A stretch of DNA of 64,000 bases, from positions 11,911,395-11,975,394 of the forward strand of contig OY986973.1 in the NCBI GenBank assembly GCA_963920575.1, read 5' to 3'. Made by a program: the position numbers and the translations under genes. Each line of letters starts with the position of its first letter. Position 1 is the first letter of the stretch. Below are positions 7,711 to 44,937 of the stretch, one piece after another. The notes under the pieces are model-generated. The model ran no database searches. It was not told the origin of the DNA and worked only from the letters and a program-made list of their open reading frames with translations. The DNA is from Narthecium ossifragum. Lineage: Eukaryota > Streptophyta > Magnoliopsida > Dioscoreales > Nartheciaceae.

Positions 7711-7937
7711 TCCTAATACCCTTAAAGGAAATCTCGTCCTGAGATTTGATAAGGGTAGGGCTCGGAAAAGAAAACAATGCCTATAAGGATACTACAAAGT
7801 GGTAAAGGGTACCTGCTGGTGTGACGCTGATGCTGAAGCCATCCAGGCCGCCTCTACTGGCCTCCACTGCCACTGCCACGGCCTCCGCCTCGCAGCGTCG
7901 TGCACTCACGACGAAGGTGACCCAGCTGGCCACACTG
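7711..7937 (-). other. E3: 3' non-coding tail and polypurine-like end
   Basis: Between the gag stop and the 3' LTR the minus strand carries the tail also seen in E4 and E7: a cgagccctacc stretch, then ttcctttaagggtattagga directly before TGTGAGG. This is the expected place for plus-strand priming. Its survival beside a missing pol shows that the deletion ran from the gag end to the pol end. Confidence 0.7.
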
Positions 7938-9161
7938 TTAGCACGAACCCGGCACTAGGCCTGCCTGCATCCTGTCCCGCCTGGTCCACGCTCTCCGCAA
8001 GGGGCAGTCTCTCCGGTAATACCCCAGCTGCCCGCACTCAAAGCACGTGACAGGTCTCTGCTCTGCATGCTTGATCTGACCAAACCCTGCGAACTCCTCC
8101 TCCTGAGGCTCCTCCTCCGGAAACCGCTCGTCCGGATCATCCTCCGCGAACTCCTCCTCTGCCTCCGAGAGGGGCTGGTCCTCGTCGTACTCACCGACTG
8201 ACTGCTCCAGCTGCTCATCCTTTGAGAACTGCTGATCGGGATCATCCTCGTCATTCACCCCCTCTGCCTCTGGACTGACTCCACTGACGTCCTCTGGCTG
8301 GTGCTGATAGGGCTGATGATGTCGTGAACAGGCCTCCCCCCGCCACGGTCCTACTCCACCCTGAGCCTGCTGCGGCTGCCCGGCGCGCCCTGAACTCGAG
8401 AGGAACACTGGCTGAATTGCCCTAGGCCCTGCCTCTAGCAGTATGGCCTCCACTGACAAGGCACAGTTCACCACCTCCCTGAGAGCGCTAGCAAACTACG
8501 CCACCATCAGAAGCCTAATCTCGGGCCGTAGTCCCCACTGAAACTGCCGCGCTCTGGCAAGAGGATCGCTCGCCACTGGACCGGCGAACCTGACGAGCCT
8601 GGTGAACCTAGCTGCATACTGTGCCACTGACTGCGTATCCTGGGAGATGCTGAGGAACTCCCAAACCAAGGCCTAACGCACACTCTGAGGGAAGTACGCG
8701 TCGAGAAAAGAGGAACGGAACATGTCCCACGAGGGGTCACTCCCGCTCCGAACGGCCAAGACAGTACTCCACCAGTCCAAAGCGTCCCCGTCGAGCTGGA
8801 ACGCCGCCAGTTTGACCCGAACCCGGTCATCCTGGATGAACAAAGCGTCGAGGACACGACTGACTCCTCTCAGCCAGTCATCCGCTACTGCCGGATCACC
8901 CTCAGCGCCACTGAACCTGGGCGGGTTCAGCTCCTGGAAGGTGATCACCGCTGCCGTCACAGCGTGTTCGCCAAGTGGCAGAAGAACCCTCTCGGCGAAA
9001 AGAGAGGCGTTTTCCCCCACAGCGAACTCAACACTCGTCTGTGGTGCTGGTGCAGAGTCTCGAGGTAAACCTGCCGCGGCTACTAGATCCAGTCGGGCGG
9101 TGCGCTGCACACGCGACCGGCCACGACTCACAACGGAACGACGTACCCGACTCCTCGGCAT
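7938..9161 (-). pseudogene. E3: chromovirus gag with acidic linker and altered zinc knuckle
   Basis: The start chosen is the ATG at 9159-9161 (MPRSRVRR), matching the MSGARGRP start of E7 gag. The retrotransgag core (LNPPRFSGAEGDPAVADDWL, then a DALDWW-containing segment) is clear. Two in-frame TAG codons break it, at 8673-8675 and 8496-8498. Downstream is a stretch of about 75 residues very rich in Glu and Asp, then a knuckle CFECGQLGYYRRDC in which the usual His is Tyr (E7 has CFLCGQPGHYRRDC). The frame stops at 7938. Gag would build the particle and bind RNA. This copy cannot do so unless stops are read through. Confidence 0.85.
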
Positions 9162-9348
9162 CTGCACACTCACCAGAAACAACAAGTATCCACTTGTCAG
9201 AAACCGCAAAACATCCAGTACAAACAGGAAGCGAAAAGCACAACACATCACAGAAGAGCATGCACGCATGTTCTAGACATAGAACTAACCCATTCCATGC
9301 TCAATTTCAACCGAATCCTAATCCTAAACCCTGGGATCTACAACCTAT

Positions 9349-9360
9349 GCTCTGATACCA
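9349..9360 (-). promoter_or_regulatory. E3: primer-binding site, tRNA-iMet type
   Basis: The minus strand reads TGGTATCAGAGC three bases after the 5' LTR end. This is the standard complement of the 3' end of plant initiator tRNA-Met used by chromoviruses for minus-strand priming. Confidence 0.9.
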
Positions 9361-9363
9361 AGC

Positions 9364-11787
9364 TGTCGCGCCCTGACCCGTGAAAGCCCAACCGGGCCGG
9401 GCGACACGAACCAGAACCTAACGAAACGCAGAAAACAAAGCTGGCGAGGGTTCCCTCTAACCAATTGATCTCCCTAACAGTTTACTAAAAGCACCCCCAA
9501 TTAAAAGACAATAATTTAATAAGCCTCGAACCACATATTACAAACCCAAGTGAATTTAATATACATATCCTCGGAAAGGGGAAGATTCAAATACAACATT
9601 ACTCCCGTACGAGACTATTTAACATAGGGTAAAAGCAGTAAACGATCACCACCTCTCAAAGTCCACCAGGGACCGCCGCACCGCCGACCAACTGCCCGGT
9701 AGGGGCCACAGAAGGAGAACTGACGCCTGCACCTACAAAACGCAGCCCCGGGTAGGTGTGAGCACTAAGCTCAGTAGGGTTCTACACTACGTTACACAGA
9801 AGGAAGAGGGAAAGACAACAGTGTCGCCCTCAAGCCAGACTCGAGTGTGCTGCAAGGGTCCCATAACCCTTCACCGGTGTCTCTAGGCATATCCAACCAT
9901 GGTCAGCCCAACGGACTTGGCCCATCCTGGATACATCTAGTGTTGCAGGGTTCCAGCTGCGGTCACCCAAAATGGACTGGGCCCACACTGATCCCCTACT
10001 GGCAGGAACAGACACTGCCTGGGCCAGACTAACCCTCTCGGCCCCCCAAAGAACAAGACCCGACACCGGCGGCACCCTCAACACCTGCCTCGAGGACGAC
10101 ACGACCTCTAATCATCATCAAGCAACAGGTGTACCAGTCCACTAGGCCTATCATCAAGTTCGACTGGACACCACAATTCGAACCGGGTCCAAACTACCCA
10201 ACCCCGGTCCTAGGGCTAAGTCCGAGCTTTCAGCCTCGGGACGGCGAGCCACAGATCACCTATGCCCTAACCATGCAACTAATGCACAACAGAGAATGCA
10301 TGCTATGACATACACAAACAGGAGATAGTCATGCAACAGTATGATCAGGCATCATATAAGTCAACCGGATCGCTGCAGCGGTACTACCGACCGCTACTAG
10401 CCGATTAGCAGCGGGTCCCGGCATTACGACGGTACCGCGACCATCAACCGCAGACTCCTGCAACGAGAAGCAACCCCGAAAACCGCTGATGAACAGTAAG
10501 CATATAATATTATAATCTGACATATAATATTATATTTAAAACACCAAAAGTACTCTACAAGAGGCTATTTGACCCCGTTGATCTGACGTCCAAACGACGT
10601 GGATTTGAGATCCAACTTAGCCACCAGTAGATCTACATGCTTGGATCAACATATCCAAAATCCATAAACATCCAACGGTTGGATTAATGGGAAAATACTA
10701 ATCAAAGCCGCTAATCAAAACTAACTTACCATCTCTTGCTGCAACGCAGCCCCTCCGTGCGAAAATCATAACAATTCGTAGACAAATCGAAAAAGTATGA
10801 AATCAGTTGGGCTTGAGAGTATATGCAAAGATCTACAATTCGTATGTTCAACACAACCCAAGATAAGGCACGTACCGGCCGGAACACTCGCCTCAAGCCG
10901 GCTGTTTTTCAAGAACAGCAGAAACCGGAAAATCTGAGATTAAAGATGCATAAATCCTACTAAAATCACAACCAAAGATCATGAAACTTATATCAGAAAT
11001 TCTACTAGGCAAGAGGAAGCCAACAACACAAAGATCAAGAAGATCCAACGGCTAGATTAGGAGAAACCCATTAAACACTCTCGTAGGTAGAAGAACCTAC
11101 CTAACAGCGCTTTCCTCGGTTGATCCCTCGCAAACCAGCCACCAACAAGGTTCCAAACCACTTCAGGGATCTTCCTCACGTCGCCACGAATCCAATAAGC
11201 TTTCAAGCTCCTAAAAAGGTGGTCGGAGGAGGGAGAACGACGAAGAGCAAGAGGGCTGCCGGGAGAAAACAGAGGAAGCAGAGCACCGCGGGAAGAAGAG
11301 AAAGAAGGAAGAAGAAGAGAAGAGAAGAGAAGGAAAGAAGAGGAAGGAAAGCCCGGGGGAAAGCCGGGGGAAAGGGCAAGGAGGGGAGGGAAAGTCCTCC
11401 CCTTCTGATAAGAGAGAGCGACGGCCGGCGGCCGTCCTCGCGAAAGAGAAAAAGCCATCGACTCGCTCACGAGTCCGATCGATCGCTCCTAGGAGCGATC
11501 AATCGCTCAAGGGCCGTAAGCTGCCCAAGAGCAAGCTTCCGCGCGCCCGAGCGAGATCTTCTGATCCCGGGTCCACCTAACTATTCTAATCAACCACTAA
11601 CACAAACAAGGTCAGTGTGTGCACACGCGAGTGTGAAACAAACCAACAAGGTGTAATTTACCAAATTGCCCTTGTGGTCCAAGAAACAATACGATCCACC
11701 GGATCGCGCGCTCGACGCGAAGCAAACCAACGAGCCACGGGCCCGACCCAGCCGGTCGACCCAGGAGTAGAGGGACGGGTCCTCACA
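9364..11787 (-). repeat. E3: 5' LTR (right copy)
   Basis: Same LTR as 5311-7710, with its TG start at 11787 and its CA end at 9364. It is 24 bp longer through small indels. It carries the same internal landmarks: twin TATAATATTATA near 10503-10534 and a CT tract on the minus strand near 11228-11400. ORFs in the GA-rich plus strand are artefacts. Confidence 0.9.
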
Positions 11788-11792
11788 TTTTA

Positions 11793-16969: not shown

Positions 16970-17345
16970 GTCCTCGATGCCGGAGGCAGCTGGGAGTAGC
17001 ACGTTGATAAGTGCATGAAAGTGCACTCTGAACAACCTTAAAACCATCTCAATTGCTATATCTTCACCCTTAATCAACTTCTTTAGCACTATTTTTATGG
17101 TATATGTTACTTCACATAGTTGCTTGGAAAATGCAGGAAATTGGAGCTGAAAGAAGCTGAAAAGATTATATGGGTCGACTTGGAAGATGAACCTGTACCT
17201 GATGATGAAGAACCAGATAATGTGCCATATATGGTTGGAAAGCTCTTGAAGTCTAGTTTCTGGAGAATTTTACCGTTTGTGATTCAGAGTTTTCTAGAGG
17301 AGGTTACAACATTTTTCGTACCAGTGCGCAGTGCTGAGTGAATAG

Positions 17346-17630
17346 TGACGGTCGACCGTCAAATCCTCACGGTCGACCGTCGCATCATCCGTGGCATCGA
17401 CCGTTGCGCTCAAAAATCCTCACGGTCGACCGTGGAGCCCGAAAATCCTCATGATCGACTGTCAGATGCTCACGGTCGACCGTCGCATCGACCGTGGCAT
17501 CGACCGTCAGCCTCTGTCAAGGAAAATACTTCGCAGGGTCGATGCGAAGATCGACCGCCGCTTGTCAAAATAAATTATGCATCTCATGATCGACCGTCAG
17601 GGTCTCACGGTCGACCGCCAGATCAGCCAG
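17346..17630. repeat. Palindrome array in the E5 LTR (GTCGAC type)
   Basis: Boxes GGTCGACC or close variants start near 17350, 17371, 17395, 17424, 17452, 17474, 17486, 17498, 17537 and 17549. The stretch 17474-17556 has the module of three boxes 12 bp apart, a 39-bp gap, then two boxes 12 bp apart, which is also seen in E8 and E15. Confidence 0.9.
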
Positions 17631-17680
17631 GGGTGTATAACGGGTTTAACCTTAACCCGAGTTTGCTAATTCTTGGACCC

Positions 17681-17688
17681 TATAAATA
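17681..17688 (+). promoter_or_regulatory. E5: TATA box of the LTR promoter
   Basis: tataaata lies about 50 bp downstream of the palindrome array and is followed by gaaaacttagg. The position fits a Pol II core promoter with U3 to its left. Confidence 0.7.
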
Positions 17689-18032
17689 GAAAACTTAGGG
17701 TTACTCAAGGGGGACTTCTTGGACGTTTTTGGAGGCTCTTTCTGGACGTTTTCTAAGGGAAGAAGATGAAGACATCTCCATCGATGGTCGAGTAATCCGC
17801 GGGCATGGCGGACGAATGATCTAGCGAGGACTAGGGCTTCTTCTCCAACAATGGTTCATAGTTTTTAATCTTCATTGTTAAACTCTTTTCTATGTCTTGG
17901 ATCTTCAAATATTATTTATAGATTATAGATTTCTATGTGGATGATTAATATTATGAATCCAGTCATGCTTCTTTCATTATCTTATAATCCAATAGTCTTC
18001 TCTATTGATTCTCCTACCGAGTCTTGCGAGAC

Positions 18033-18290
18033 CTTTGCTATGCATTGCCCGTAGTGACAACTGGTATTGTGTATTCTTAGGGATCTTGTAAGACAAGGTT
18101 GGAGCTCTATCCCGAGGAATCTTTGCTATGTATTGCCGATTGTGAGAGTTGATATTGTGTATTCTTAGAGATCTGGTTAGATAGAGTTAGGGCTTTGTCC
18201 CGATGAACTTTTGCTGCGCGTTGCCTGTAGTGACAGCCGGTATCGTGTATTCTTAGGATCTGGTAGGACGGAGTTAGGGTTACAACGAGA
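18033..18290 (+). repeat. Three tandem units of about 88 bp in the E5 LTR
   Basis: Units begin near 18033, 18121 and 18208 with ctttgct, continue with tgcc, gtagtgaca and tggtattgtgtattcttag, and end with gggctctatccc-like sequence. The E10 LTR has the same units; E11 interrupts them at the ctttgct junction. Confidence 0.8.
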
Positions 18291-19385
18291 AGAACCAACC
18301 ATAGAAAGAGACATTTATATTTTATCAGATTCATAATTCTATATCTTTCGGATAAGGTGATTGGGATGTGAATCCCTTAACTGAGTATTATATGAACCAT
18401 TGAGAAGAGAAGAACCTAAATCCGAGTGAAGTGATTCCTGAAGTCTAGCCTCATTCAAATCTTGATTTCTTTCATTAACTTTATCTTACCATTACATCTT
18501 CGTTCTATTTTCTTAACTTTTATCGCTCTTGATTGTTTTCAATTCATTGTTATTTGTATTTCTGGATCTTTCCTGCTTGTCTCTCTATGGGATTCGACCT
18601 CTCTTATGCTATACTGCACTGTGACCGCTGTGCGTGACACATTTGAGCGACATCACACGTTCCCTTGGTGGAGTTCGCCTACAACATCAGCTACCAGTCC
18701 AGTTTTGGAGTAGCACCTTTCTTGGTGTTGTACGATAGGCCATGCCATTCCCCAGTGTGCTGGATAGAGGTTGGAGAGCCACCACTCACCGGTCCAGACA
18801 TCGTCAGGCGGTCGTCAGAGAGACTAGCTCAGATCAGGCAGAGACTTCTGATGGCTCAGAGCCGGTAGAAGAGTTATACAGATCAGAGGCGACGACCGTT
18901 AGAGTTTGCAGTCGGTGTCAGAGTGTTCCTGAGAGCATCACCGTACAGAGGGTCATTCAGGTTTCGCAGAGGTGGTAAGTTGGTGTCGAGGTTCGTCGAG
19001 ACGTTTGAGATCCTAGAGAGGATTATCGAGGTAGCTTACCGCCTGGATCTTCCTCAGCACATGTCGATGCTGAGGAAGTATAACCCAGACCCGTCTCATG
19101 TCATCAAGGTGGATGATATTGAGCTTGAGACAGACGCGACGTTGATTGAGCAGCCAGTTCAGGTATTTGACCGGAGGGATCAAGTCTTGCGGGCCAAGAC
19201 GATTCCCTTGGTCAAGGTACTATGGAGGCACTGAGGCGTCGAGGAGATGACCTGGGAGCGCGAGGCGCGCATGCGGCAGGAGTATCCGCACTTGTTTCCT
19301 TCTCGAGGTAGCCTCTTGTCCTATCTTCTAGTGTAGCTGCTTTTCTGTTTTCGAGCCCTACCTTTATCGAATCTTGGGACGAGAT

Positions 19386-19824: not shown

Positions 19825-20844
19825 TGTGAGGACCTACCCCTCTACCCATGTGGCTCGTTGTAGACCGCAAGGGTAATTTGGTAAATTACGCCTTGTTGGT
19901 TTGTTCCACACCCGCGTGTGCACACACTGACGTTGTTTGTGTTAGCGTTTGATTAGAAAGATTAGGTGGACCCGGGATCGAAAGATCCAGGCTTTGGCTT
20001 AAGTTTTAGCCCAAGTCTAGCATTCTGCACTTGAAGGATCGATCTTTCCTTGCTAGAAGGATTGATCTTTGGAGCCAGAAAGTCAAGGCGCAATCGTCAT
20101 GAAGGATCGATCTTTCCTCAAGGAAGGATCGATCATTCCTAGGTCGGTTCGTTTATCTATAAAACGGACGTAACGCTCTTCCTTGAATCCTTTTTGAAAC
20201 CCATGTTCTTGAGCTCAGAGCTGTCGAATTTTGAGGAGATTTGGGACGATCCAAGGCATAGCAGCTGGGATTGAAGTAGCTATTGCTTAGGTAGGGATCC
20301 TGCCTATGTTTGTTTTTCGGTTTTGTGAGTTTTGAGTTGATTGTGTTTTGTTTCGCTTGGATCTCACTGAATACATGTTAGTTTGTAGTATTTCCACCGG
20401 TTTTGGACTCGTGGTCCTTCGTACTACCAGATCCCAGAGTTTTGTGGCATTTGGTGGAGTTTTTCGATGGTATTTCTCGCCGGAGAACCCAACAAGATCG
20501 ATCTTTTAGGGAGAAAGATCGATCCTTCATTGTTGGTCATGCTGAACTCGAGCATGATCGATCATCGGTTGAGGATGATCGATCATCGGTTGAGGATGAT
20601 CGATCCTTGTGCCTTGGGTAGCATGGGATCCCCCTTGTCGCGAGGAGGATCGATCTTCCTGGGAGTAAGGATCGATCTTCCTTGGCGTGGCAAAGAGGAT
20701 GTCCTCTATCGCGAGGATGATCGATCTTTCTGGGAGGAAGGATCGATCATCCTTGGCACGATATGGAGGAATGCTCTCTGTCACAATGATGATCGATCTC
20801 CCTGGGAGGGAGGATCGATCATCTTTGGTTCGAGATGGAAGGAA
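19825..20844 (+). repeat. E6: 5' LTR, first part
   Basis: Starts TGTGAGGAC inside the LTR of E4. It has a TATA-like TATAAAA at 20158-20164, directly preceded by GATCGATC boxes (20035-20140). From 20496 a large GATCGATC array follows. E7 interrupts the array at 20844, and the LTR resumes at 31754. Confidence 0.85.
20496..20830. repeat. GATCGATC array with about 71-bp units in the E6 LTR
   Basis: Eleven GATCGATC boxes. From 20648 on they come in pairs 22 bp apart (20648/20670, 20719/20741, 20791/20813), with unit lengths of 71 and 72 bp. The pair at 20719 forms an inverted repeat with 13-bp perfect arms. The array continues past E7 with a decayed pair near 31774 and 31797. Confidence 0.9.
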
Positions 20845-23231
20845 TGTCGCGCCCCGACCCGCGAAAGCCCAACTCGGCCGGGCGACGCGAATCGGAACCT
20901 AACGAAACGCGGAAAACAAAGCTGGTGAGGGTTCCCTCTAACCTATTGGTCTCCTTAACAATCTATCACAAATCACCCTCAGTTAAAAGACAATAATGAA
21001 ACCTCGAATCACAGATTACAAACCCAAAAAGTGTTTAATATACATATCCTCGGAAAGGGGAAGATTCAAATACAACATTACTCCCGTAGGAGACTAACTA
21101 ACATAAGGTATAAAAGCAATAAAGATCGCCACCTCTCAAAGTCCACCAGGCGCCGCCGCACCGCCGACCAACTGCCCGGTAGGGGCCACAGAAGAAGAAC
21201 TGACGTCTGCACCTACAAAACGCAGCCCGGGTAGGAGTGAGCACTAAGCTCAGTAGGGTTCTACACTACGACACACAGAAGGAAGAAGGAAATGCAACAG
21301 TGTCGCCCTCGAGTAAGACCTGGGTGTATACAGGGGTCCCACAACCCCACCGCGTGTCGCTGAGGCCCACGATAATGGTCTTTCAGCGGGGCTGGTAACA
21401 TGTCAGGTCACACTCAGTAGCAGAAAACAACACTATTGACTCTCAACAAGACACATAACACTGTTTGGTGGGAAGAGACACCACTGATTAGGCAACTCCT
21501 CTACTCAAGAGTTTAAGAACACCGGACACCGGCTACACCTGAGATCCGACTCGAGGCCGACACGACCTCTACAATCATCAAGCAACAGGTGTACCAGTCA
21601 TCTAGGCCTATCATCAAGTTTGACTGGACACTGCAATTCAAACCGGGTCCAAACTACCCAACCCCGGTACTATGAATATACACAAACAGGAGGTAGGCAT
21701 GCAACAGTATGATAAGGCATCATATAAGTCAACCGGATCGCTGCAGCGGTACTACCGACTGCTGCCAGCCGATCCGCAGCGGGTCCCGGCATTACGACGG
21801 TACCGCGACCGTCAACCGCGGACTCCTGCGATGGGAAGCAACCCCGAAAACGATGATGAACAGTAAACATATAATATTATAATCCGAAATATAATATTAT
21901 ATTCAAAAGACCAAACCCTCTACTTAGAGGCTAATTGATCCCGTCGATCCAACATCTAAAAGAAGTCGGATTCAAGATTCAACTTAGCCAACAGTAGATC
22001 AACATGCCGGAATCAACATATCCAAAATCCATAATCATCCAACGGTTGGATTAACGGGAAAACACTAATCAAAACCGCTAATCAAACTAACTTACCAATT
22101 AATTGCTGCAACGCAGCCCTCTAGCAATAAATTCATAACAAAGCGTAGGAAAATCGGAAAATTATGCAATCAGTTGGGTTGGAAAGTAAATTCAAAGATC
22201 TACAACTATTATGTTCATCACAACCCAAGAACATGCACGTACTGGCCGGAAATCTCGCCGCAAGCCAGATGTTCTTCAAGAACAGCAGAAACCGAAAAAT
22301 CCGAGATTAATCATGCATAAATCCTACTAAGATCTCAACTAGAGCTTATGAAATTTATACCAAAAATTCTACTAAGCATGAGGAATCAAACAACACCAAG
22401 ATCAACAAGATCCAACGGCTAGATCTAGAGAAAACCTAAAAACAACACCAGTAGGTAGAAACCTATCCGAAACGCACTCCTCGGCTGATTCCCCGCGAAC
22501 TGGTCTGCAACAAGGTTCCAAACTACTTCAGCGATTTTCCCCTCGTTGCCACGGATCCAACGAGCCTTAGAACACCCAAAACGGTGGCCGGAGGAGGGAG
22601 AACGGATGGGAAGAAGATGGCTGCCGGAAACAGGGGAAAAACAGAACCGCGGGAGGAAGAAGAAGAAGGAAGAAGAAAGGAGAAGGAGGAGGAGGAGAGG
22701 AAGAAATGGACGGAAAAGGGGAAGGGGAAAGCCGGGGGAAGGGGGAAAAAGGAGAAGGAGGGGAGGGAAAGTCCTCCCCTTTTGACAAGAGAGAGCGACG
22801 GCCAACGGCGGCCGTCCTCTCGAAGCAGAAAAGCCACCGACGCCGAGTCCGATCGATCGCTCCAAGGTGAAATCGATCGCTCGCGAAAGAAAAGCCAGCC
22901 CGGATCGATCCAACACCAAGTTGGATCGATCCGAGACAGGCTAGATTGATCCAAAACATTTGGATCGGTCCGAACGGGTCAAAAACCCACCAACTCGCTC
23001 CTAGGAGCGATCGATCGCTAACGGGCCGTCAGCTGCCAAAAAGCAAGCTTCCGCGCGCCCGAGCTGGGATCTTTCGATCCCTGGTCCACCTAACCATTCT
23101 AATCAAGCACTAACACAAACAAGGTCAGTGTGTGCACACACAGGTGTTAAACAAACCAACAAGGCACAATTTTACCAAATTGCCCTTGCGGTCTACAACG
23201 AGCCACAGGAGTAGAGGGACAGGTCCTCACA
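20845..23231 (-). repeat. E7: 3' LTR (left copy)
   Basis: LTR start TGTGAGGAC on the minus strand at 23231 and end GCGCGACA at 20845. Contains GATCGATC boxes near 22903, 22924, 22944 and 22963, spaced 19-21 bp. One pair forms a hairpin with 13-bp arms around a 5-base loop (22902-22932). Also present are a CT tract on the minus strand (22585-22785) and twin AT palindromes (21868-21900). Confidence 0.9.
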
Positions 23232-24384: not shown

Positions 24385-24669
24385 TGTGAGGGCCCGTCCC
24401 TCTGACCTGGCTCAACCGCGTGGGTCGAGAGCCGGATTCCTGTTGGTTTGGTTCCGCGTCGGGCACGATCGGGCGATCGTGTGGCGGTTTGGACCCCGAG
24501 GGCATTTTGGTAAATATGCCCTCTGGCGGTCGGTTTCACACCCGCGTTCCACACACTGACTTTGATTGATGTATGTGTTTCATTAGAACCCCTAGGGTGC
24601 GTCCGATCGGAGGATCGGAGCTCGATCGAGAAAGATCGAATCGGACGGCTGAGATAGATCTGGATTTTC

Positions 24670-24677
24670 TATATAAG
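24670..24677 (+). promoter_or_regulatory. E8: TATA box of the LTR promoter
   Basis: tatataag follows a run of cgatcgg/gatcgag words (24600-24650) and precedes a CT-rich leader, as expected for transcription start in these LTRs. Confidence 0.65.
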
Positions 24678-25206
24678 CCAAGTCCCTTTCTTCTCTTTCC
24701 TTCTCTCCTTCACCTGTCGTTCTCTCTTCCCTTCTCTCTCCTTTGGCTGAGGTAGGGTTTGGAGACTTGGGCTTCGGATCGCGGATCTTGACGGCTTGAC
24801 CAGCGGGACGCGTGGAGGAGCTACCCTACTTGCTCAAGTAGGTGTTTCTACCTCGATCCTTGGATCGGGTTCTCCTAGGATATGTTTCATGTGCTTTCGT
24901 TGTAGGAATACATGTTAGAATGCTTTATAACTCCTTGCATGTGTAGGGTGGTTCATTTCCGGTATTCCTACGTTGCGATTTCAGTATTCTAACGGTTGGT
25001 TTCCGTATTATCGCCGTTTTGTCGGTTTTCGTTCATTTGGACCTAGATAGGAGATTTAACCGTCAAAAACTGGATTTCTTCATTCCATTAGCTTCCCCAC
25101 TGATAAATACACTTGCTTGCGAAATTTCATCTTATTCCAACGTGATTTGATACTTGAAATCCAAAGAAACGGATTTTCGGCACTGTTGTGATGAACTGTG
25201 CCAAGG

Positions 25207-25600
25207 CTCGACGGTCGATCGGTGCATCGACCGTCGAGTGTTATTTTACCCTTTCTGGGCCTGACGGTCGACCGTCGGATCGACCGTTGGATCGACCGTC
25301 GCATCGACCGTCGGGCTCTGTCGGGAATTTGGACTCCCACGGTCGATGGATGGATCGACCGCGGGATCTTCTCTTTTTGTCATTTACCTGACGGTCGACC
25401 GTCGAATCGACCGTCGCATCGACCGTCAGGCGCTGTTTGGTTTTTGGGCTTCTCAGGGTCGATGGGTGGATCGACCGTCGCCCTTGGTTTTCTTCGCTTG
25501 GGTCTCACGGTCGATCGCCGGATCGACCGTGACATCGTCCGTGATCTCACGGTCGATCCTCGGATCGACCGTGACATCGTCCGTGACCTCTTGGGTTTGG
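25207..25600. repeat. 12-bp-phased palindrome array in the E8 LTR (GTCGAC type)
   Basis: Boxes GGTCGACC, GATCGACC, CATCGACC or GGTCGATN start at 25213, 25225, 25266, 25278, 25290, 25302, 25341, 25353, 25393, 25405, 25417, 25457, 25469, 25509, 25521, 25533, 25551, 25563 and 25575. Within clusters the step is exactly 12 bp. Two clusters are followed by a gap of 39 or 40 bp and a GGTCGATG/GATCGACC pair. Confidence 0.93.
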
Positions 25601-25807
25601 TTTTCTGGTTTTTCTTGGATGGATTTGGCTTGGGTTTAGTAACTAAACATGTTGGGGAATGTGTATGTGGATTTCATGAAGTTTTCAAGGGATTTCCATT
25701 GAGATTAAGGTTTGGATTGCATGTTGTTTTTCCTTGAATAAATCGATGTTATGGTTTGCCTTTAATACATGTTTGGATGTAGTTATTTGCTTAATGGTGT
25801 GCTTAGG

Positions 25808-25836
25808 CATTAGCTAGCTATGAGTGCTAGCTAATG
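25808..25836. repeat. Hairpin in the E8 LTR
   Basis: Arms cattagctag and ctagctaatg are perfect inverted repeats around a 9-base loop. Confidence 0.85.
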
Positions 25837-26805
25837 AGAAATTGTGGAACCTTAGCCTCTTGCCGGCGAGTGCCGAGGGCTATTGTATATCTGTGGAACT
25901 TATAACTGCTGATGTTACATGTAGAGACATCTAGGATAGATGTTTGCCTAGGCCCATGCATTGTGTGCATTAGAGGCATTTGAGGTTAGGCGGGCGATGG
26001 TTTGGGTCGCCGATCCGAGGCTCTCGGGTAGCTCGAATCTAGCCTTAGGGCCGTGGCTGGGTAGTCAGGACTAGGGTGTGATTGTATGATCAAGTCTCTT
26101 GTGATTGAGGATTGCGATAGTTGACTTGAATCGGTGTTTGAGGTTTAGAGGTCGTATTGTCTTCCGAAGCCAAGTGCTAAGGATGGATGTTGATGTGTTC
26201 CCGACGTGGTTTCCCAAGGCTTGGTATTCCAGCTTGGGTAAGGGTGATCTTGCATGTTACTGTTCCTTGGCCTCCTGGTAACTTGTTCATGAGAGAGGTT
26301 TCATGACAGGAGCCCTTGAGACATCAACTGGGTTATGGGACCCGTGGCATCCGTTAGACTTAGGCTGGGAGACAACACTGTTGTTGTTTTCCTCCTTTCA
26401 GTGTGCCGTAGAGTAGAACCCTACTGAGCTTATCGCTCACTCCTACCCGGGCTGCGTTTGCAGGTGCAGGCGGCATCTCTTCTTCAGTGGAGCCGGCAGG
26501 ATCGGCCTTCGGCGGCGCGAGTACATCCAGGGGCGCTTGAGGTTGCTGGAGGATGATCTGTTGTACATTTTGATATATATGTATATGTTGTAGACTTTCT
26601 GAGGATTTTGGAATATTGTATTAAACCTGTATATGAACTGTACAACTTGATGATATATTATAATTGAATCTGTTCGCCTCTGGAATACAATTGTTTAAAT
26701 TATCCATCTTTTCCGCTTTGTATCGCGCCGATTGAAGATGAATAGTGATAGGAACCCTCACGCCCCGTCCTGGATGGGTTTTCTGGGTCGGGGTGTGACA
26801 TGCTC

Positions 26806-29279: not shown

Positions 29280-31748
29280 TGTCGCGCCTCGACCCGCGAA
29301 AGCCCAACCGGGCCGGGCGACGCGAACCGGAACCTAACGAAACGCGGAAAACAAAGCTGGCGAGGGTTCCCTCTAACCTATCGGTCTCCCTAACAATCTA
29401 TCACAAATCACCCTCAGTTAAAAGACAATAATGAAACCTCGAATCACAGATTACAAACCCAAAACATGTTTAATATACATATCCTCGGAGAGGGGAAGAT
29501 TCAAATACAACATTACTCCCGTAGGAGACTAACTAAAATAAGGTATAAAAGCAGTAAAGATCGCCACCTCTCAAAGTCCACCAGGTGCCGCCGCACCGCC
29601 GACCAACTGCCCGGTAGGGGCCACAGAAGAAGAACTGACGCCTGCACCTGCAAAACATAGCCCGGGTAGGAGTGAGCACTACGCTCAGTAGGGTTCTACA
29701 CTATGACACACAGAAGGAAGAGGGAAACGCAACAGTATCGCCGTCGAGTAAGACCTGGGTGTATACAGGGGTTCCATAACCCCACGGCGTGTCCCTGATG
29801 CCCACGATCATTGTCTGCCAGCCGGGCTGGTCCGGTCACACTCAGTAGTAGGAAACAACACTGCTGACTCTCAACAGGACACAGAACACTGTTTGGTGGG
29901 AAGAGACACCACTAACTAGGCAACTCCTCTACTTAAGAGTTTAAGAACACCGGACACCGGCTACACCTCAGATCCTACTCGAGGCCGACACGACCTCTAC
30001 AATCATCAAGCAACAGGAGTACCAGTCATCTAGGCCTATCATCAAGTTTGACTGGACACTACAATTCAAACCGGGTCCAAACTACCTAACCCCGGTCCTA
30101 GGGCTAAGTCTGAGCTTCCAGCCTCGGGACGGCGACCCACATATCACCCACGCCCTAACCATGCAACTAATGGACAAATCAACAATGCATGCTCTGACCA
30201 TACACAAACAGGAGGTGGCATGCAACAGTCTGATAAGGCATCATATAAGTCAACCGGATCGCTGCAGCGGTACTACCGACCGCTGCCAGTCGATCCGCAG
30301 CGGGTCCCGGCATTACGACGGTACCGCAACCATCAACCGCGGACTCCTGTGACGGGAAGCAACCCCGAAAACGATGATGAACAGTAAACAAATAATATTA
30401 TAATCCGAAATATAATATTATATTCAAAAGACCAAACTCTCTACTTAGAGGCTAATTGATCCCGTCGATCTGACATCCAAACGACGTCGGATTAAAGCTT
30501 CAACATCGCCATCAGTAGATCACCATGCCGAGATCAACATATCCAAAATCTATATTCATCCAAAGGTTGGATTAACGGGAAAACACTAATCAAAACCGCT
30601 AATCAAACTAACTTACCAATTAATTGCTGCAACGCAGCCCTCCAACAATAAATAAACAATCGTAGGAAAATCGGACAATTATGCAATTAGTTGGGTTTGA
30701 AAGTAGATTCAAAGATCTACAACTCTTATGTTCATCACAACCCAAGAACATGCACGTACGGGCTGGAAAACTCGCCGCAAGCCGGTTGTTCTTCAAGAAC
30801 AGCAGAAACCGAAAAATCTGAGATTAATCACGCAAAAATCATACTAAGATCTAAACCAAAGCTTATGAAATTTATACCAGAAATTCTACTAAGCATTAGG
30901 AATCTAACAACACCAAGATCAACAAGATCCAACGGCTAGATCTAGAGAAAACCCAAAAACAACACCAGTAGGTAGAAACCTACCCGAAACGCACTCCTCG
31001 GCTGATTCCCCTCGAACTGGTCAGCAACAAGGTTCCAAAATACTTCAAGGATCTTCCTTTCGTTGCCACGGATCCAACGAGCCTTAGAACAGCCAAAACG
31101 GTGGCCGAAGGAGGGAGAACGGAGGGGAAGAAGATGGCTGCAGGAAAGAGGGGAAAAACAAAACCGTGGGAGGAAGAAGAAGGAAGAAGAAAGGAGAAGA
31201 AGGAGGAGGAGAAGAGGAAGGAAAGGAGGGAAAAGGGGAAGGGGAAAGCTGGGGGAAGGGGGAAAAAGGATAAGGAGGGGAGGGAAAGTCCTCCCCTTCT
31301 GACAAGAGAGAGCGACGGCCAACGGCGGCCGTCCTCTCGAAGCAGAAAAGCCACCGACGTCGAGTCCGATCGATCGCTCCTGAAAGAAATGCCAGTCCGG
31401 ATCGATCCAACACCAAGTTGGATCAATCCGAGATAGGCTGGATCGATCCAATACATTTGGATCGATCCGAACGGGTCAAAAACCCACCGACTCGCTCACG
31501 AGTTCGATCGATCACTCCTAGGAGCGATCGATCGCTCACGGGCCGTCAGCTGCCCAAAAGCAAGCTTCCACGCGCCCAAACTGGGATCTTCTGATCCCGG
31601 TTCCACCTAACCATTCTAATCAAGCACTAACACAAACAAGGTCAGTGTGAGCACACGCGGGTGTGAAACAAACCAACAAGGCGCAATTTTACCAAATTGC
31701 CCTTGCGGTCTACAACGAGCTACAGGGGTATAGGGACAGGTCCTCACA
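29280..31748 (-). repeat. E7: 5' LTR (right copy)
   Basis: LTR start at 31748 and end at 29280 on the minus strand. It carries a ggatcgatcc-type hairpin near 31397-31430, a CCTAGG-centred palindrome near 31515, a CT tract on the minus strand (31105-31300) and AT palindromes near 30391-30422. It shares the overall layout of the left copy apart from several indels. Confidence 0.9.
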
Positions 31749-37017: not shown

Positions 37018-38288
37018 TAATGAGTGCATGAAAGTGCACTCTGAACATGACTAAGAACAGCTTATTTGCTTAGTTTTCATAATTAATATAGATGATTTTG
37101 TTCGTATATGTTGCTTCACAAAGTTATTTGTATTATGCAGGAAATTGAAGCAAAGATGGGTCTTTAACGCCAAAACTGTACCTTCTCGAAACGAACCAGA
37201 TGAAGTGCCATATATGGTTGGAAAGTTCTTGAAGTCTAGTTTCTGGAGAATCTTACAGTTCGTGATTCCGAGTTTCATAGAGAAAGTTACGGTAATTTTA
37301 GTACCAATGGCGCAGTCTGGATGGTAAAACAGTAAATACTCAGGAAAGACGGATCGATCATGTTCCATAAAAGGATCGATCCTTTTATGCATATGCATAC
37401 TTTTCATATGATCATAAAAGGATCGATCCTACTATCCATCCTACTAAGAAGGATCGATCCTTTGCTTTACAAAGGATCGATCTTAGTCTGGGCGACCCAA
37501 ATTACAGAAAATGAGGAGAAATACAGTTTCGTCGACTGATAGGACAATATTCGTAACATATTCTCTAGAAGTCCAAATATTCTGAACTTTGAATACATGA
37601 GAGACGGCTCAGAGATCTACAACTTGTATGTTGGACATTTTGTGAGATTCTGGATGGGATGATAGCAGATTGGAAGAATAGATTAAGTTACAACTTTCGT
37701 GTTGAGCAAATCTACAACTTTCGTGTTGAGCAAGTGTCCAAATTCCGGCTGGATTGGACCCAACTGCGACCGGAATAGGGCTGCTAGGATTAACTCAGGA
37801 AATCTGAGTTGCACCATAAGTCCAACTCAACTAAAACCCTAATTTCAGGAGTTCCCCTATATATACGGCTATTTTAATTTGAAAAGGAGGCAGGTCCCAA
37901 GGGGGTTTTCTACAGAGCTTTGGAGGGGAGAAAAGCAAGAAAGAAGATGAAGAAATCTCCATCCATGGTTGGGTAAGCCGCGGGCATGGCGGACGGACGA
38001 TCTAGCGAAGATTAGGGTTTCTTCTACATCATGGTTCATAGGTTTTCATCTTTATTGTTTAAACTCTATTTATGTATTGGATCTTTACAGATTGCTTTGT
38101 GGTTAAACATTATTATAAATCCAGTCATGCTTCTTTTATGATATTGTGATCCCATAGTTATCTCTTTTGATTCTCCTACCAAGTCTCATAAAACCTTTGC
38201 TATGCATTGCCCATAGTGACAGCTGGTATTGCGTATTCTTAGGGATCTGGTAAGACAAGGTTGGGGCTCTATCCCAAGTAATCTTTGC
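37018..38288 (+). repeat. E10: 5' LTR, first part
   Basis: Same family as solo LTR E5 (gtgcatgaaagtgcac near the start, atgcaggaaattg near 37136). It contains five GATCGATC boxes at 37352, 37374, 37421, 37452 and 37475, and a tatatata box at 37858-37865. It is broken inside the tandem 88-bp units at ctttgct by E11. Confidence 0.88.
37350..37482. repeat. GATCGATC array in the E10 LTR
   Basis: Five boxes with spacings 22, 47, 31 and 23 bp. The sister LTR E5 has the GTCGAC-type array in the corresponding place, so the two members of one LTR family carry different array types. Confidence 0.88.
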
Positions 38289-39936
38289 TACTTAAAAATA
38301 AATCCAATACTCTTCAAAACAAATGTAGTAGTGCGAGTACAAGTCGATCCCACGAAGAGTGTTTAGCCTAATTTTGTGCTAAGTGAACAAAGATAGGGGG
38401 GTTTTAAACGTGAGGAAAACAGTAAAGAAATAATCTAAATAAAAGAAACAAATTGAATGAAGAGAACAAACCTTGGTCTGAGTCAACATCCACCATCGGA
38501 ATCTGACAACTGATCATAGATGCAAGTATCAATCAATTCATACCATGAATATTCAACGTTCGAATTAAATTCGAATCTCTCCTCGATCATAGTTAATTAG
38601 AAACAAGCGATCTAATCAACCCTAACCACTAGACAACCGAAGACAAGCGCTGTAGATTTAATCTAGTAGCAGCGTTAAGAATAGGGAGATCGATGAAGCT
38701 AAACAACACAAGCACAAGCGGTTGCATTTAATCTAGTTGACTATTCTTCCAAAGATCTAACAAGATCTGATCAGCAGTAAATTATTAGATCCTAGTTGCT
38801 TCGCAGATCAGAGGGATCAAAAAATTCCGGATTTGATATCCAACCTAGCAGTAGATCGCCATGAATAATAAACTAGTAACGCTCCTAGTAATTAAACAAG
38901 ACAATCATGAAGATAAACACAGAAGAATACTCAATACTCATGAATAAACTGAACAATAAAAATAAATTAGATCTCACAGTTTCATTGATTCCGAGGTTTC
39001 AGTCTCCTCGACCAAGGATCAAGATTTAGCCACGCAGGGCCATCGAGAACAATCCCCAAAAGATTCCAATAAACAAGATAAAACCTAGAAAAAATATAAA
39101 GGAGGAGAAAGAGCAGCCAAAAGTGTCCAAGAATCCCCCCTCAAACCCTAGAAAGAGTACTATTTATAGCCTTCAAGTGTCTCCATCAACGGATTAGATC
39201 AAAACCGTTGATTTAATTCACTGGGAAAGTCCGATCGATCCTTCTCGGGGTGCTGGATCGATCAGTCTCATTAGAATCTTCAATTTGTAGTTACGCCTGA
39301 GTCCGATCGATCGAACTATAGGCGCTGGATCGATCGGATGCGTAAAAATCCATCTTCTCTGGCTATTTTTGAGTCCGATCGATCGAACTTTAGATGTCCG
39401 ATCGATTTGGCTCATTAAAATCTGCAATTTCTGACATTTTCCGAGTCCGATCGATCCAACTCTAGGAGTCGGATCGATCTGGCTCAGTAGGAGTGATGGT
39501 TCGATCGATCGGACCATGTTCAGCCAAAAAATATATGTTCTGTCACGATTCTGCATGGTCCGATCGATCCTACCTGGGGAGTCGGATCGCTCGGACTGTT
39601 CAGCTTATTCACTGCTCTGCCATCCAGACTGCGCCATCGGTACTAAAATTGCCGTAACTTCCTCTAGGAAACTCGGAATCACGAACCGTAAAATTCTCCA
39701 GAAACTAGACTTCAAGAGCTTTCCAACTATGTATGGCACATCCTCTGGTTCTTCATGAGCAGGTACAGATAAATCTTTAAAGTTGATCCATGCACTCTTT
39801 TCAGCTTCTTTTCGACTTAAGGACTTCAATTGCATCCTAAATCAAAATATAAGAATAATGAGTGTATTTAGGAACTAAATAAGCATAGGAGACTAAGTAT
39901 TAAGGGATAAAAATATAACATTATGCATTCTCATCA
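38289..39936 (-). repeat. E11: 3' LTR (left copy)
   Basis: LTR start TGATGAGAATGCATAATG at 39936 on the minus strand. Contains the GATCGATC array (39226-39600) and a TATA box. Its end near 38289 is eroded. Nearly identical to 42832-44496 at a constant offset of 4560. Confidence 0.92.
39161..39169 (-). promoter_or_regulatory. E11: TATA box, left LTR
   Basis: The minus strand reads CTATAAATA. The GATCGATC array begins about 60 bp upstream of it. Confidence 0.7.
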
Positions 39937-39990
39937 AATTCCCCCACACTTAGCTTTTGCTCGTCCTCGGGCAAAACTAAAATTCACTCT
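39937..39990 (-). promoter_or_regulatory. E11: polypurine tract and conserved lead-in
   Basis: The minus strand reads GAGGACGAGCAAAAGCTAAG, then TGTGGGGGAATT directly before TGATGAG. This G-rich tract is the expected plus-strand primer of Athila/Tat elements. Confidence 0.8.
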
Positions 39991-41573
39991 ACTCAAGATA
40001 TCAAGGTTGCAACACCATCAACAAAGAACAATCAAGCTCTTCACAACTCATAACATATTATGAACAAACATTTTTAGACAACTTAAAAACCAATCAATAA
40101 GCATTTTCACTTGAATATGGAGCAAAATAAATAATTAGACCTCACGGAAATAAACACTCAACTCTCATGTGTTTCAAGGGTATGTATTTCACTCCAATTC
40201 ATTCCAATGAAAGTGATCTACCATAGGCTTGCATATCTTCTCATTCTCCACCACTAGAATCACATGCATAACACGAATCATAAGGACTTCAAAAGGTTGT
40301 AATGGGGTCTAGGATTAAGGTGGGAAATATTTGGGAATGTAGCTCAAAAGCCAATGGAGCTAATGGAGCAAAAATGCATCAATAAGACATGTACAACCAA
40401 TCACTCCATTAAACAACTTTCTTCAACTTGGCTTTAAAGTACTCAAACCATATAACATTACCACATTGGCAAAGAGATTGCTCAAATGAATATTTTTTTA
40501 CTGAAATAGTGAACAATCTTTTGCAAAAACTTCCACCTTTGTAGAAATCATACATAGACATACCCCTTTTTTGGAGTATTAGGAGGATTCAAAAACACAT
40601 TTTGTAACATGAGAAACAATTTCCTCCTTCACTTTCTTTTCTTCTTTTCTTGTTTTTTTTTTTCAAATATAGCGATACCACAAATCCAAACACCCCCACA
40701 CTTGAACTTTTGCACCCATACATGTCATAATGATGATCAATGCTCCACTAGTTTTATGGCTTGGGTAACGGAAATATTTTTTTTCAGGTTTAAAGTTGTA
40801 ATGTGGGTTAACAATAAAGTCAATAAAGCTCAAAGGTGTTTAGCAAAAGAAAAAATTAATTGCAAGGTAGGCTATTTGGCTTATGTAGCTTAAGACAAAA
40901 AATGGCCTTAATCATGTTCATGTCTGCATGTGTCAATGTGACCTCGAATAGAATCAAAGCAAGTTCTAGAGAAACAAATCCATGGAAGAATATCTCTCAT
41001 GAAAGAAAATAGTGAGACTGAAATGAATGTGTCAGTCTAGAGGCTCAAAATCTCACCGGCTTTTGTCTACTCATTTAGTCACTCCCATCTCAAGGAAAAT
41101 AACTCAAGTAATTAAATCCAAGTCGCAAAATTACTCATTCAATCATGTTATGAATATGTCAAGCTTAACTAGTTCTCGCTCATGGCAAATGCAACCTAGA
41201 TCTCCTCCCCCACACTTGAAACTGACATTGTCCCCAATGTAAGGTGGAATGCAAAGAAAGGCAAAAATAACTAAAATGGAAATGCGAAAATAAAAAGAGA
41301 AAGGAACGAACTCCCCTTGGGTTGCCTTCCAAGCAGCGCTTTTGTTTATTGTCATTGCCTCGAATTCACGCTTCTTCCTTGAATACTGTGGGAGTCGCCA
41401 AACTTTGACTTTCCATGATCACCGTGGCTAGGCGAATTCTTCAAGTATGATAGGGAATGCTCGATCACCTAAAGACAAAAGCAAAGCAAAGCAAAACAAA
41501 AGCAAACATGCATGCACACAACCTAAACATAATTCTAGCACTCTCAAGCACACAAGAAAGTAAATAAAACAAA
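39991..41573 (-). other. E11: long 3' non-coding region with two conserved inverted repeats
   Basis: No supported ORF on either strand; the plus-strand frame 40609-40893 lies in a T-run and is not convincing. Two motifs are shared with other elements. ACATTGGGGACAATGT (minus strand, 41225-41240) is also at 50842-50857 in E10. A TTGGAAGGCAACCCAA hairpin follows AGCGCTGC (minus strand, 41317-41340) and is also at 13621 in E2. Their retention in an element without pol suggests a cis function. Confidence 0.65.
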
Positions 41574-42725
41574 CTAAACTACTATATACAATAGAAAAAA
41601 TTTTAATCGTGCCCTCGGTGGCCGTTCTCTAGCACGATGGTATGCAAAATCACTGGGTGCTATAATCTGAATATTTAACCTCAATAATGCCACCAAGGTT
41701 AATTTAGCATAAGAGTCCAAGTGGTATTTTTCAAAATTGAGATTTAGCTTTTCCATACTAACACCAGTAAACAACATAGCTAGATCTCTCAAACAAAAAT
41801 GCATGTCATCATGGTGATCAGGAAGAAAGGAGTCAACATTCTGCTCAACTATAATCGAATCATCCGTTGAACTATTAAGAATGTCGTCGTTCGGAATGTC
41901 AAAGATGTCAAGATTACATGATCGAAAATAAATCCGTCGAGATATGAAAATATCTACTAAGGTCATCTCCTTTTTAACCACTAATGACGATGAGATAGTC
42001 ACAGGAAATATACCTCGCGACGTACTAGGAATGCTTTCAACTTCAGTCGGAGGAGGTTCATCGAATAAATACTCCTGGTCTTCTCGGCGGTCGATTGGAC
42101 TGGACTGGACAGCTTCTTCATCTGCATTTTGTAGAAATTCCCTCGAAGCATCTCCAACCGTTTGAGAGGGTAATTTTCCCGAATTTTGCGCCTCTATCTT
42201 GCTGATTGCAGTCGCCATCTGGCCTAACTGATGTTCTAATCTTTGAATACTAGCCTTCGTCTCCTGTTGAAATTGCGAAGTATTAGTAGTAAGAGATTGA
42301 ACTAAATCTTCCAAAGATGGCTCTTGATGCATTTGTGACTGAGGAGTGAAGGGGTTCTCAACTTCGTCACGTTCCCTAGGAAATCTTTCCTCCCAAGAAA
42401 TACGCATTTCTCTAAAGGAATTAATATTTTCTTCCATTTCCTTCAGAATCTCTTGCATTTGTGCTTGAAACTGCCGACTAGGGTAGGTATGACCTCTAAA
42501 ATCCGAATTATAAGAATATGAATATGAATCATAGGCCGGGTTTGGGAAACCATGAAACTGCCAACTAGGGTCGGTATGATCTCTAAAATCCGAATCATAA
42601 GAATATGAATATGAATCATAGGCCGGGTTTGAGAAACCATATATGTCATTATTGTAAACGGGTTCATAACCAAAAGACAAATCATCATTCCATATGTCAC
42701 CCGGTGGCATATTATAATTGGCCAT
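41574..42725 (-). CDS. E11: 383-residue ORF of unknown role with a gag C-terminal-like segment
   Basis: ATG at 42723-42725 (MANYNMPPGD), about 107 bases after the 5' LTR. Residues 1-90 are Tyr/Ser/Asp-rich and hold a duplicated unit: NPAYDSYSYSYDSDFRDHTD and NPAYDSYSYSYNSDFRGHTY. Residues 90-190 are charged and probably coiled, ending in IQRLEHQLGQMATAISKIEA, which is the gag C-terminal segment of Athila/Tat elements (compare E2). Residues 200-250 are acidic. The C-terminal third (LVDIFISRRIYFRSCNLDIF, then MHFCLRDLAMLFTGVSMEKL) is not recognised. No zinc knuckle, protease or RT. It could be a Gag partner that lets the element be packaged; that is inference. Confidence 0.75.
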   Translation of the reverse strand: MANYNMPPGDIWNDDLSFGYEPVYNNDIYGFSNPAYDSYSYSYDSDFRDHTDPSWQFHGFPNPAYDSYSYSYNSDFRGHTYPSRQFQAQMQEILKEMEENINSFREMRISWEERFPRERDEVENPFTPQSQMHQEPSLEDLVQSLTTNTSQFQQETKASIQRLEHQLGQMATAISKIEAQNSGKLPSQTVGDASREFLQNADEEAVQSSPIDRREDQEYLFDEPPPTEVESIPSTSRGIFPVTISSSLVVKKEMTLVDIFISRRIYFRSCNLDIFDIPNDDILNSSTDDSIIVEQNVDSFLPDHHDDMHFCLRDLAMLFTGVSMEKLNLNFEKYHLDSYAKLTLVALLRLNIQIIAPSDFAYHRARERPPRARLKFFLLYIVV

Positions 42726-42808
42726 ACATTCAAACCATAGAAACTATATAAATTTTTTTTTTAATGAAAATAAAGATCACTATAAGCACAAAAATCAACT
42801 AGAATCAC

Positions 42809-42826
42809 TCCCCGGCAACGGCGCCA
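42809..42826 (-). promoter_or_regulatory. E11: primer-binding site, tRNA-Asp type
   Basis: The minus strand reads TGGCGCCGTTGCCGGGGA, the standard Athila/Tat primer site, five bases inside the 5' LTR end (ACATCA). Confidence 0.92.
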
Positions 42827-42831
42827 AAATT

Positions 42832-44932: not shown

Positions 44933-44937
44933 AAAAT

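Follow-up and report, generated by a model that had tools for sequence, protein, structure and literature searches.

A spacing-constrained array of putative dimeric DNA-binding sites, probably copied between transposable-element lineages, in Narthecium ossifragum

Arrays of short palindromic boxes are present in the genome of Narthecium ossifragum in the LTRs of four groups of transposable elements (TEs), as well as in an element with terminal inverted repeats (TIRs), all of which are otherwise unlike one another. The sequence of the boxes and the spacing between them are held, the sequence of the gaps drifts, and yet the gaps are alike between the groups. The reading that we favor, and consider rather probable, is that of a spacing-constrained array of putative dimeric DNA-binding sites that has been copied between TE lineages. 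The usual view is that LTR promoters evolve inside their own lineage, whereas the array described here spreads across TE superfamilies and classes, which suggests that TEs of quite different kinds pass a control switch among themselves.

The starting point was a 64,000-nucleotide stretch of contig OY986973.1, referred to below as the window. It contains E8, a solo LTR that is flanked on both sides by the 5-bp target duplication TGCTC and carries the following features (positions are those of the window).

24385–26800, plus strand: E8, 2416 bp, solo LTR with TGTGAG..TGACA ends that belongs to family A (Ty3/gypsy, chromovirus-like)
25207–25570, plus strand: the entire E8 array, 17 boxes
25207–25238, plus strand: first inverted pair, with 13-bp arms and a 6-nt loop; TCGA at 25208, 25215, 25227 and 25234
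25266–25360, plus strand: module 1, four boxes at 12 bp, a gap A of 33 nt and a 12-bp pair; TCGA at 25268, 25280, 25292, 25304, 25343 and 25355
25393–25476, plus strand: module 2, three boxes at 12 bp, a gap A of 34 nt and a 12-bp pair; TCGA at 25395, 25407, 25419, 25459 and 25471
25509–25570, plus strand: two more inverted pairs; TCGA at 25511, 25523, 25553 and 25565

Together with its flanks the box reads CGGTCGACCG, a palindrome with a CGG-CCG core, and boxes are also arranged as inverted pairs. All box positions that the first-pass annotation had assigned to E8 and to two further LTRs of the window, E5 and E15, were confirmed, including a decayed box at about 55767. The module of 83–95 bp that it delineated is valid as the repeat unit but not as the whole, the array of E8 being longer. 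Its description of the gap holds in part: gap A starts with 'ctctgt' in E5, E15 and module 1 of E8 but with 'cgctgt' in module 2 of E8, and it ends with ttctcagggtcgatg in module 2 of E8 and in E15 but with ctcccacggtcgatg in module 1 of E8. The 34-nt gap A of module 2 is unique among the 32 gaps of this type found in 17 LTRs of E8's family. Over its full length, E8 aligns in two pieces with the LTRs of two elements, A (L009/L010) and C (L013/L014); identity is 86–87% in the initial 240 bp and 76–78% in the remainder.

The spacings in these arrays are fixed, with 12, 39–41 and about 52 bp between TCGA palindromes. Groups of boxes at 12-bp steps lie 39–41 bp from one another, and in related LTRs, where the module period is 104 or 116 bp, two gap types alternate, of which gap A opens with a CTCTGT-like stretch. 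Among 17 arrays of the gypsy A type, the most frequent distances between neighboring boxes are 12 bp (133 cases), 41 bp (24), 39 bp (24), 40 bp (18) and 30 bp (12); the commonest spacing is 21 bp in a copia element, D, and in the array that precedes the env-like gene of a Sirevirus, B (see below). Three Sirevirus LTR arrays contain 49 boxes. The observed-to-expected ratio of CpG is 1.3–1.7 in arrays of this GGTCGACC type; four other LTR stretches have 0.25–0.85, and the window has 0.81.

The spacing pattern occurs far more often than expected by chance. In the window, TCGACC-N6-TCGACC was found 7 times and not once in 100 dinucleotide shuffles, and a TCGA spacing of 38–41 bp followed by one of 12 bp was equally frequent (7 occurrences), whereas the shuffles had 0.01 on average. 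Across the genome (379.4 Mb), the first of these patterns has 16,252 matches, compared with 137 for the reversed pattern, and the longer TCGACC-N20-50-TCGATG-N6-TCGACC has 15,088 matches, compared with 0 for the reversed control; these counts overlap, a single array yielding several matches, and cover both strands. Three matches of the pattern in viral contigs were taken as chance because the gap sequence is absent from all three. The periodicity of the box distances is mixed among lineages: a period of 10.5 bp is best for Sirevirus and copia D, 12.9 bp fits gypsy equally well, and 12.8 bp is better for Athila, so helical phasing as the sole explanation was dropped.

We identified the carriers of the array in 24 stretches around module matches in the first 6.6 Mb of contig C1, which are not a random sample. 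They contain 22 array-bearing insertions, and 21 of these could be given a TE assignment, the exception being L029: 14 are of the gypsy A type (two of them with both LTRs), two are Sireviruses, one is a classic copia element, one is Athila-like, two are MULE-like (L032 and a related piece, L030) and one is another element with long inverted repeats (L031). Of thirteen further loci, 12 are Sirevirus loci, with one LTR represented twice, and the last is an Athila LTR of E5's type.

The pol domain is RVT_1 in elements A and C and RVT_2 in elements B and D. Both A and C encode an integrase, RVP_2 is present in A, and the family of E8 has a tRNA-iMet primer-binding site (PBS); the chromodomain match of C is weak (E 0.018) and falls short of the Pfam cut-off. 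Element B (L011/L012) has the features published for Sireviruses, namely an RVT_2-type pol, the polypurine tract (PPT) AGGGGGAG-AT beside the 3' LTR, several PPT copies (four octamers) and the junction CA/ATTGG-TATCAGAGC. It also contains an env-like ORF, which matches PF20167. Directly before this ORF (L011, 8703–9052) lies a second box array of Sirevirus B, with boxes commonly 21 bp apart. In element D (L015/L016), the Sirevirus PPT and junction are absent: its PPT is AGGTGGAG and there is no ATTGG. Element D belongs to a classic copia family. In gypsy A, copia D and Athila the array runs in the direction of the element, and in Sirevirus B it runs in the opposite direction. E5, E15, copia D and B have a TATA-like match behind the array, and E15 has one before it as well. 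In E8, one TATA-like box precedes the array by 540 bp and is missing from other gypsy LTRs; another is located far behind. The position of the array relative to TATA-like boxes is therefore not uniform, which counts against the favored reading. In the window, a chromovirus-like element at 5312–11788 has 2.4-kb LTRs that are 93.9% identical; they are separated by 1.7 kb, and the element is therefore probably non-autonomous.

Pack-MULEs are defined by long TIRs, a 9-bp target duplication and a captured gene fragment. One array-bearing insertion resembles them.

L032, 980–2454: Pack-MULE-like element with 163-bp inverted ends (80%) and the 9-bp target duplication CAATTATAT on both sides

The captured gene fragment of L032 is an ORF with an AMP-binding domain, which we take to be 4-coumarate-CoA-ligase-like; the array lies near the right end of the element, and no match to a transposase was found in it. 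In L031 (1612–2728), long and partly nested inverted repeats surround box pairs that are 52 and 64 bp apart, and a gap of the CTCTGT type is absent.

Two more LTRs of the window, E5 and E15, carry the array in an Athila-like setting.

17007–18655, plus strand: E5, LTR of an Athila-like family; its 5' end is not fixed
17350–17616, plus strand: E5 array, with a 12-12-39-12 module at 17474–17556; a TATA-like box follows downstream, at about 17681
55159–56916, plus strand: E15, LTR of an Athila-like family; pieces of it match the LTRs 38290–39936 and 42850–44496 at 78–86%
55695–55962, plus strand: E15 array, a GGTCGACC-type module at 55755–55837 between pairs of a second box type, GATCGATC, 22 bp apart

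E15 combines both box types within one LTR, and its TATA-like box downstream is at about 56027. Pieces of E5 match 37020–37316, 37941–38290 and 44497–44932, and the third of these is followed at 44938 (plus strand) by a tRNA-Asp-type PBS, which we take to be a marker of Athila. The same family has ORFs for gag, RVT_1 and integrase in 45274–50570. In the family of E15, the marker is a tRNA-Asp-type PBS at 42826 (minus strand), which adjoins the LTR at 42850–44496; no pol was seen. Shortly before the array, the two LTRs have a flank of 159 bp in common (17151–17308 in E5 and 55479–55635 in E15) that is 78% identical, and with the array masked the rest of the two LTRs gave no alignment at 1e-3. 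E5 and E15 are related Athila-like families rather than one family. Because they have the PBS type and the flank in common, they are not independent, and the three lineages that the first-pass annotation had recognized in E5, E15 and E8 are reduced to two. The common flank also implies that inheritance or movement among Athila families may have involved more than the array, and the stretch exchanged between E5 and E15 may be larger than the array. A short Athila-like element of the window (38290–44496), with LTRs that are 98.2% identical and the minus-strand PBS at 42826, is nested in a larger Athila element (37020–38290 and 44497–50570); its ORF at 41574–42743 (389 aa) has no Pfam match.

Outside the array, these LTRs have little in common, which bears out the claim that the module resides in LTRs of different coding lineages whose remaining sequence is unlike. 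When one LTR of each of five kinds (gypsy A, Sirevirus B, copia D and the E5 and E15 types) was compared with its array masked, nine of the ten pairs gave no match at 1e-3, and the sole matching pair was E15 and E5 with their 159 bp. Without masking, the LTRs of copia B and gypsy A aligned over 150–280 bp at 72–76% identity and, at the thresholds used, in no part but the array; positions 17464–17558 of E5 are 84% identical to the LTR of copia D across 95 bp. Reverse transcriptase identity is 33.6% between gypsy A and Athila and 37% between B and D, and just short fragments align across superfamilies.

The gaps of the different lineages resemble one another as well. For the 26-nt interior of 14 chosen gap stretches, permutation means were 6–7 identical positions for the tested cross-lineage pairs. 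The observed identities were 17–22 for Sirevirus and Athila, 19–20 for Sirevirus and D, 16–20 for D and Athila, 14–18 for MULE and D, 13–18 for Sirevirus and gypsy, 12–15 for MULE and Sirevirus, 11–16 for D and gypsy, 11–15 for Athila and gypsy, 11–14 for MULE and Athila, and 8–13 for MULE and gypsy. In six of the ten cross-lineage pairs, the likeness was matched by at most 2 of 20,000 permutations; p was at most 0.00025 in seven pairs and 0.00065 for Athila and gypsy A, and the likeness was weak for MULE and Sirevirus (p 0.006) and not significant for MULE and gypsy E8 (p 0.069). Judging from these identities, the modules of Athila, a Ty3 element, resemble Ty1 modules more than they resemble the gypsy modules, although gypsy is the other Ty3 family. 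A tree of 47 modules places gypsy beside Sirevirus, and Athila beside copia D and MULE (94/94). In the comparison of module tree and RT lineages that the first-pass annotation had proposed, the AU test rejected neither of two groupings, with p values of 0.43 for a single Ty3 clade and 0.36 for a single copia clade; the 69 columns of the tree are too few.

What is held within a family was determined for 15 gypsy LTRs, a set in which every LTR pair is represented by a single member. Of 5653 comparisons of 33-nt flank windows, 1996 showed a difference in length, as opposed to 12 of 156 for gap A, from which two LTRs with a single recognizable gap A were left out; all 12 differences involve E8's own second gap. 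Bootstrapping over loci gave length-difference ranges of 0.295–0.403 for the flank and 0–0.213 for gap A. Substitution divergence was 0.174 for flank windows with 60% identity or more and 0.202 for the gap interior. Within E8's family, the gaps of the LTRs change in sequence at the pace of the flanks and keep their length. In the genome, 1388 matches were obtained for one gap-A sequence pattern at 33 nt and 13 for its version with a base added at one place; a base added elsewhere in the gap escapes the pattern.

In LTRs that were chosen by the pattern, box identity was 0.969, or 0.889 without the columns used for the choice, compared with 0.788 for the flanks. Since choosing loci by the pattern biased this test, it was redone on LTRs chosen by their flanks, 16 of which were taken from 40 scored among 5125 candidates. 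The array is kept at the same place in 15 of the 16; L051 has two boxes and L059 has seven. Identity in this set was 0.941 (0.865–0.978) for the boxes, a value inflated by the tendency of MAFFT to pair box with box, 0.775 (0.667–0.836) for the gap and 0.807 (0.754–0.846) for the flank. For CpG, identity was 0.945 in boxes and 0.794 in the flank, and gap A measured 33 nt in all 19 cases found. The constant place of the array is unlike that of a free satellite, the outcome by which the first-pass annotation would have been refuted; with 21 of 22 sampled insertions assigned to a TE, the arrays in the samples do not form free-standing satellite DNA.

A second array type consists of AGATCGATCT pairs, whose spacers, among the matches listed, vary and often extend the inverted repeat. 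Pairs of AGATCGATC with TCGA 19–23 bp apart have 12,318 matches in the genome, compared with 1 in the reversed control; the pattern is palindromic, and both strands give the same places. Among the matches listed, the spacing is 22 bp in most pairs. In the window, pairs of this type are found in LTRs of sister copies of the E5 and E15 families and in chromovirus-like LTRs, as follows.

37352–37482, plus strand: GATCGATC boxes in a sister LTR of E5's family, 22–23, 31 and 47 bp apart
39233–39569, minus strand: GATCGATC array in an Athila-like LTR, mostly 23 and 49 bp apart; in the mate LTR at 43793–44129
20496–20820, no strand assigned: GATCGATC array just outside a chromovirus-like LTR, mostly 21–22 and 49–50 bp apart
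22851–22931, 31368–31533 and 60234–60302: other GATCGATC arrays

Self-comparison of the window (E 1e-8, pieces of at least 80 bp) revealed no between-family match of GATCGATC arrays. In L047, about 75 bp separate a Sirevirus solo LTR (1270–2426; target duplication CTATT) from a GATCGATC array that belongs to an Athila LTR, and this insertion brings both box types together. In L039, a Sirevirus LTR adjoins Athila LTR sequence.

The feature is predicted to be a cis-regulatory array of palindromic, CpG-containing sites with the half-site TCGACCGT at fixed distances. A dimeric DNA-binding factor would read the regularly spaced palindromes, and the array would act as an orientation-independent enhancer or as an anti-silencing element. 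Palindromes, fixed spacing, held boxes, CpG, the reversal in B, and the fact that in E5, E15, B and D a TATA-like box follows the array would all fit such DNA binding. TE lineages may have received the array from one another as a DNA cassette, for example by nested insertion and subsequent recombination or gene conversion, and the TEs that took it up would have acquired a common expression window. Nested insertion gives occasion for such a transfer, as Sirevirus LTRs lie within or beside Athila LTR sequence (L047, L039); E15 itself mixes the two types of boxes. As the gap drifts like the flanks within one family, the resemblance of Ty1 gaps to Ty3 gaps, in elements whose RTs can hardly be aligned, argues for fairly recent copying rather than old common descent. 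The exchange between families that had been put forward earlier is strengthened by the unlike LTRs and by a wider host range (Sirevirus, classic copia and TIR elements) and weakened by the finding that E5 and E15 are not separate lineages; tandem duplication, which likewise produces regular spacing, also counts against it. Transfer appears to be the better reading, not a proof, the tree not rejecting a grouping by superfamily.

An alternative role would be at the level of RNA, with the arrays kept as transcript hairpins that provide a template for host small RNAs or serve a step of the element's RNA life, and with no DNA binding. The array of E8, the sole one folded, has a strong predicted RNA structure (z -9.3; none of 100 shuffles was equally good), and the palindrome clusters in maize Sirevirus LTRs are small-RNA hotspots with strong predicted RNA structure, according to the accessible portions of PMC10760457 and PMC5311732. 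Hairpins, however, need just complementarity, neither an exact spacing such as the 33-nt gap and the 12-bp steps nor a fixed box, and copia D and E5 have many boxes that form no long stems, being short palindromes at distances of 21 bp. We regard such a role as unlikely.

Convergence without exchange, in which the same host factor would reward each lineage's own array and gap likeness would reflect further selected sites, is to our mind no more likely than the RNA-level role and no less. It is in line with the near-identity of some Sirevirus motifs in distant plants despite very low homology of the elements, as given in the available part of PMC2829016, and with the occurrence of the CTCTGT-like stretch in gap A of every lineage that has this gap. 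Nevertheless, the gypsy gap interior diverges like the flanks, so that constraint would not be expected to preserve gap likeness between superfamilies for long.

A third explanation, which we consider less probable than either, is that a TE-encoded anti-silencing protein reads the arrays and families without its gene parasitize it, after the manner of VANC of the VANDALs, which are DNA transposons of the Mutator kind. VANC binds motif-bearing noncoding tandem repeats of VANDAL TEs and removes silent marks, and these repeats expand, contract and diverge rapidly (PMC10398659, from the part of the text available); in N. ossifragum, GGTCGACC and GATCGATC boxes replace each other in sister LTRs. 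On the other hand, the part of the ORFs of A, C and D that was scanned contains no extra DNA-binding domain. A neutral minisatellite, with 12-, 21- and 52-bp units that slip or duplicate, regularity as a by-product and movement by nested insertion only, is very improbable: array length does change by whole units, the two LTRs of copia D differing by one box 21 bp on, and periods of both 104 and 116 bp occur, but in the flank-chosen sample the boxes, CpG included, are more conserved than gap and flank, and gap length is held without conservation of sequence.

If dimeric sites copied between lineages are indeed what the array represents, then the box and spacing being held and the gap being free make the factor on which these TEs would depend directly testable, and the binding of one array would inform thousands of arrays in several TE groups. 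A broader proposal, which we offer tentatively and which may well be wrong, is that both TE classes use an exchangeable cis-regulatory code of two palindrome types that can replace one another, GGTCGACC with distances of 12, 40 and 52 bp and GATCGATC with distances of 22 and 50 bp; each would have a factor of its own, and both would be swapped among Ty1, Ty3 and MULE elements. If true, TE lineages would compete or cooperate for one host activator or anti-silencer irrespective of descent.

In the partial literature searched, sharing of a module by Ty1, Ty3 and class II/MULE elements was not found, nor was a description of the exchange of LTR motifs between families, as judged by title or the start of the abstract; among the matches listed for the letters of the box, no title concerned plant retrotransposons. 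Palindromes of maize Sireviruses were reportedly described as small-RNA hotspots by Bousios et al. in 2016 (Genome Res 26:226). Their sequence differs from that of the box described here, and the accessible text of PMC10760457 and PMC5311732 makes no mention of fixed spacing or of Ty3 carriers. The same maize palindrome is present in Helitrons (PMC10760457, in its available part), which is the nearest precedent found for sharing across TE classes.

Like the repeats targeted by VANC, the arrays are noncoding tandem repeats of short motifs with quick turnover and family-specific differences. However, each VANDAL carries its own VANC gene, with each VANC acting on its own family and relatives, as far as the available part of PMC10398659 goes, whereas the boxes described here are common to unlike TE groups. 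Similarly, the plastic CpG islands of Del LTRs, as portrayed in the accessible sections of PMC4029996, are variable CpG islands in the 5' half of Ty3/gypsy LTRs; the word 'palindrom' does not occur in that main text, no spacing is reported there, and eudicot Del elements are without the island.

The closest likeness is to the repeated motif (RM) boxes of Sireviruses. The repeated motif of the Vitis Sirevirus in Table 3 of Bousios et al. 2010 (PMC2829016) is CGGTCGACCG, identical to the box described here, so this kind of box was already known. In the sections of that paper available, the RM boxes are also palindromes with a CGG-CCG core, CpG-rich and of high copy number (17 in E8, the published criterion being at least 8 per element), and boxes precede ENV, as they do in B. 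RM boxes are placed before the TATA box, whereas the arrays of N. ossifragum have TATA-like matches behind them in E5, E15, copia D and B but on both sides in E15 and E8. The same sections describe the motif as Sirevirus-specific and absent from classic Ty1/copia elements, whereas in N. ossifragum it is found in Ty3 chromovirus-like, Athila-like, classic copia and class II elements as well. To the RM boxes of PMC2829016, so far as they are described there, the present array adds fixed spacing and homologous gap DNA, and it bears on the role of Sirevirus repeated motifs.
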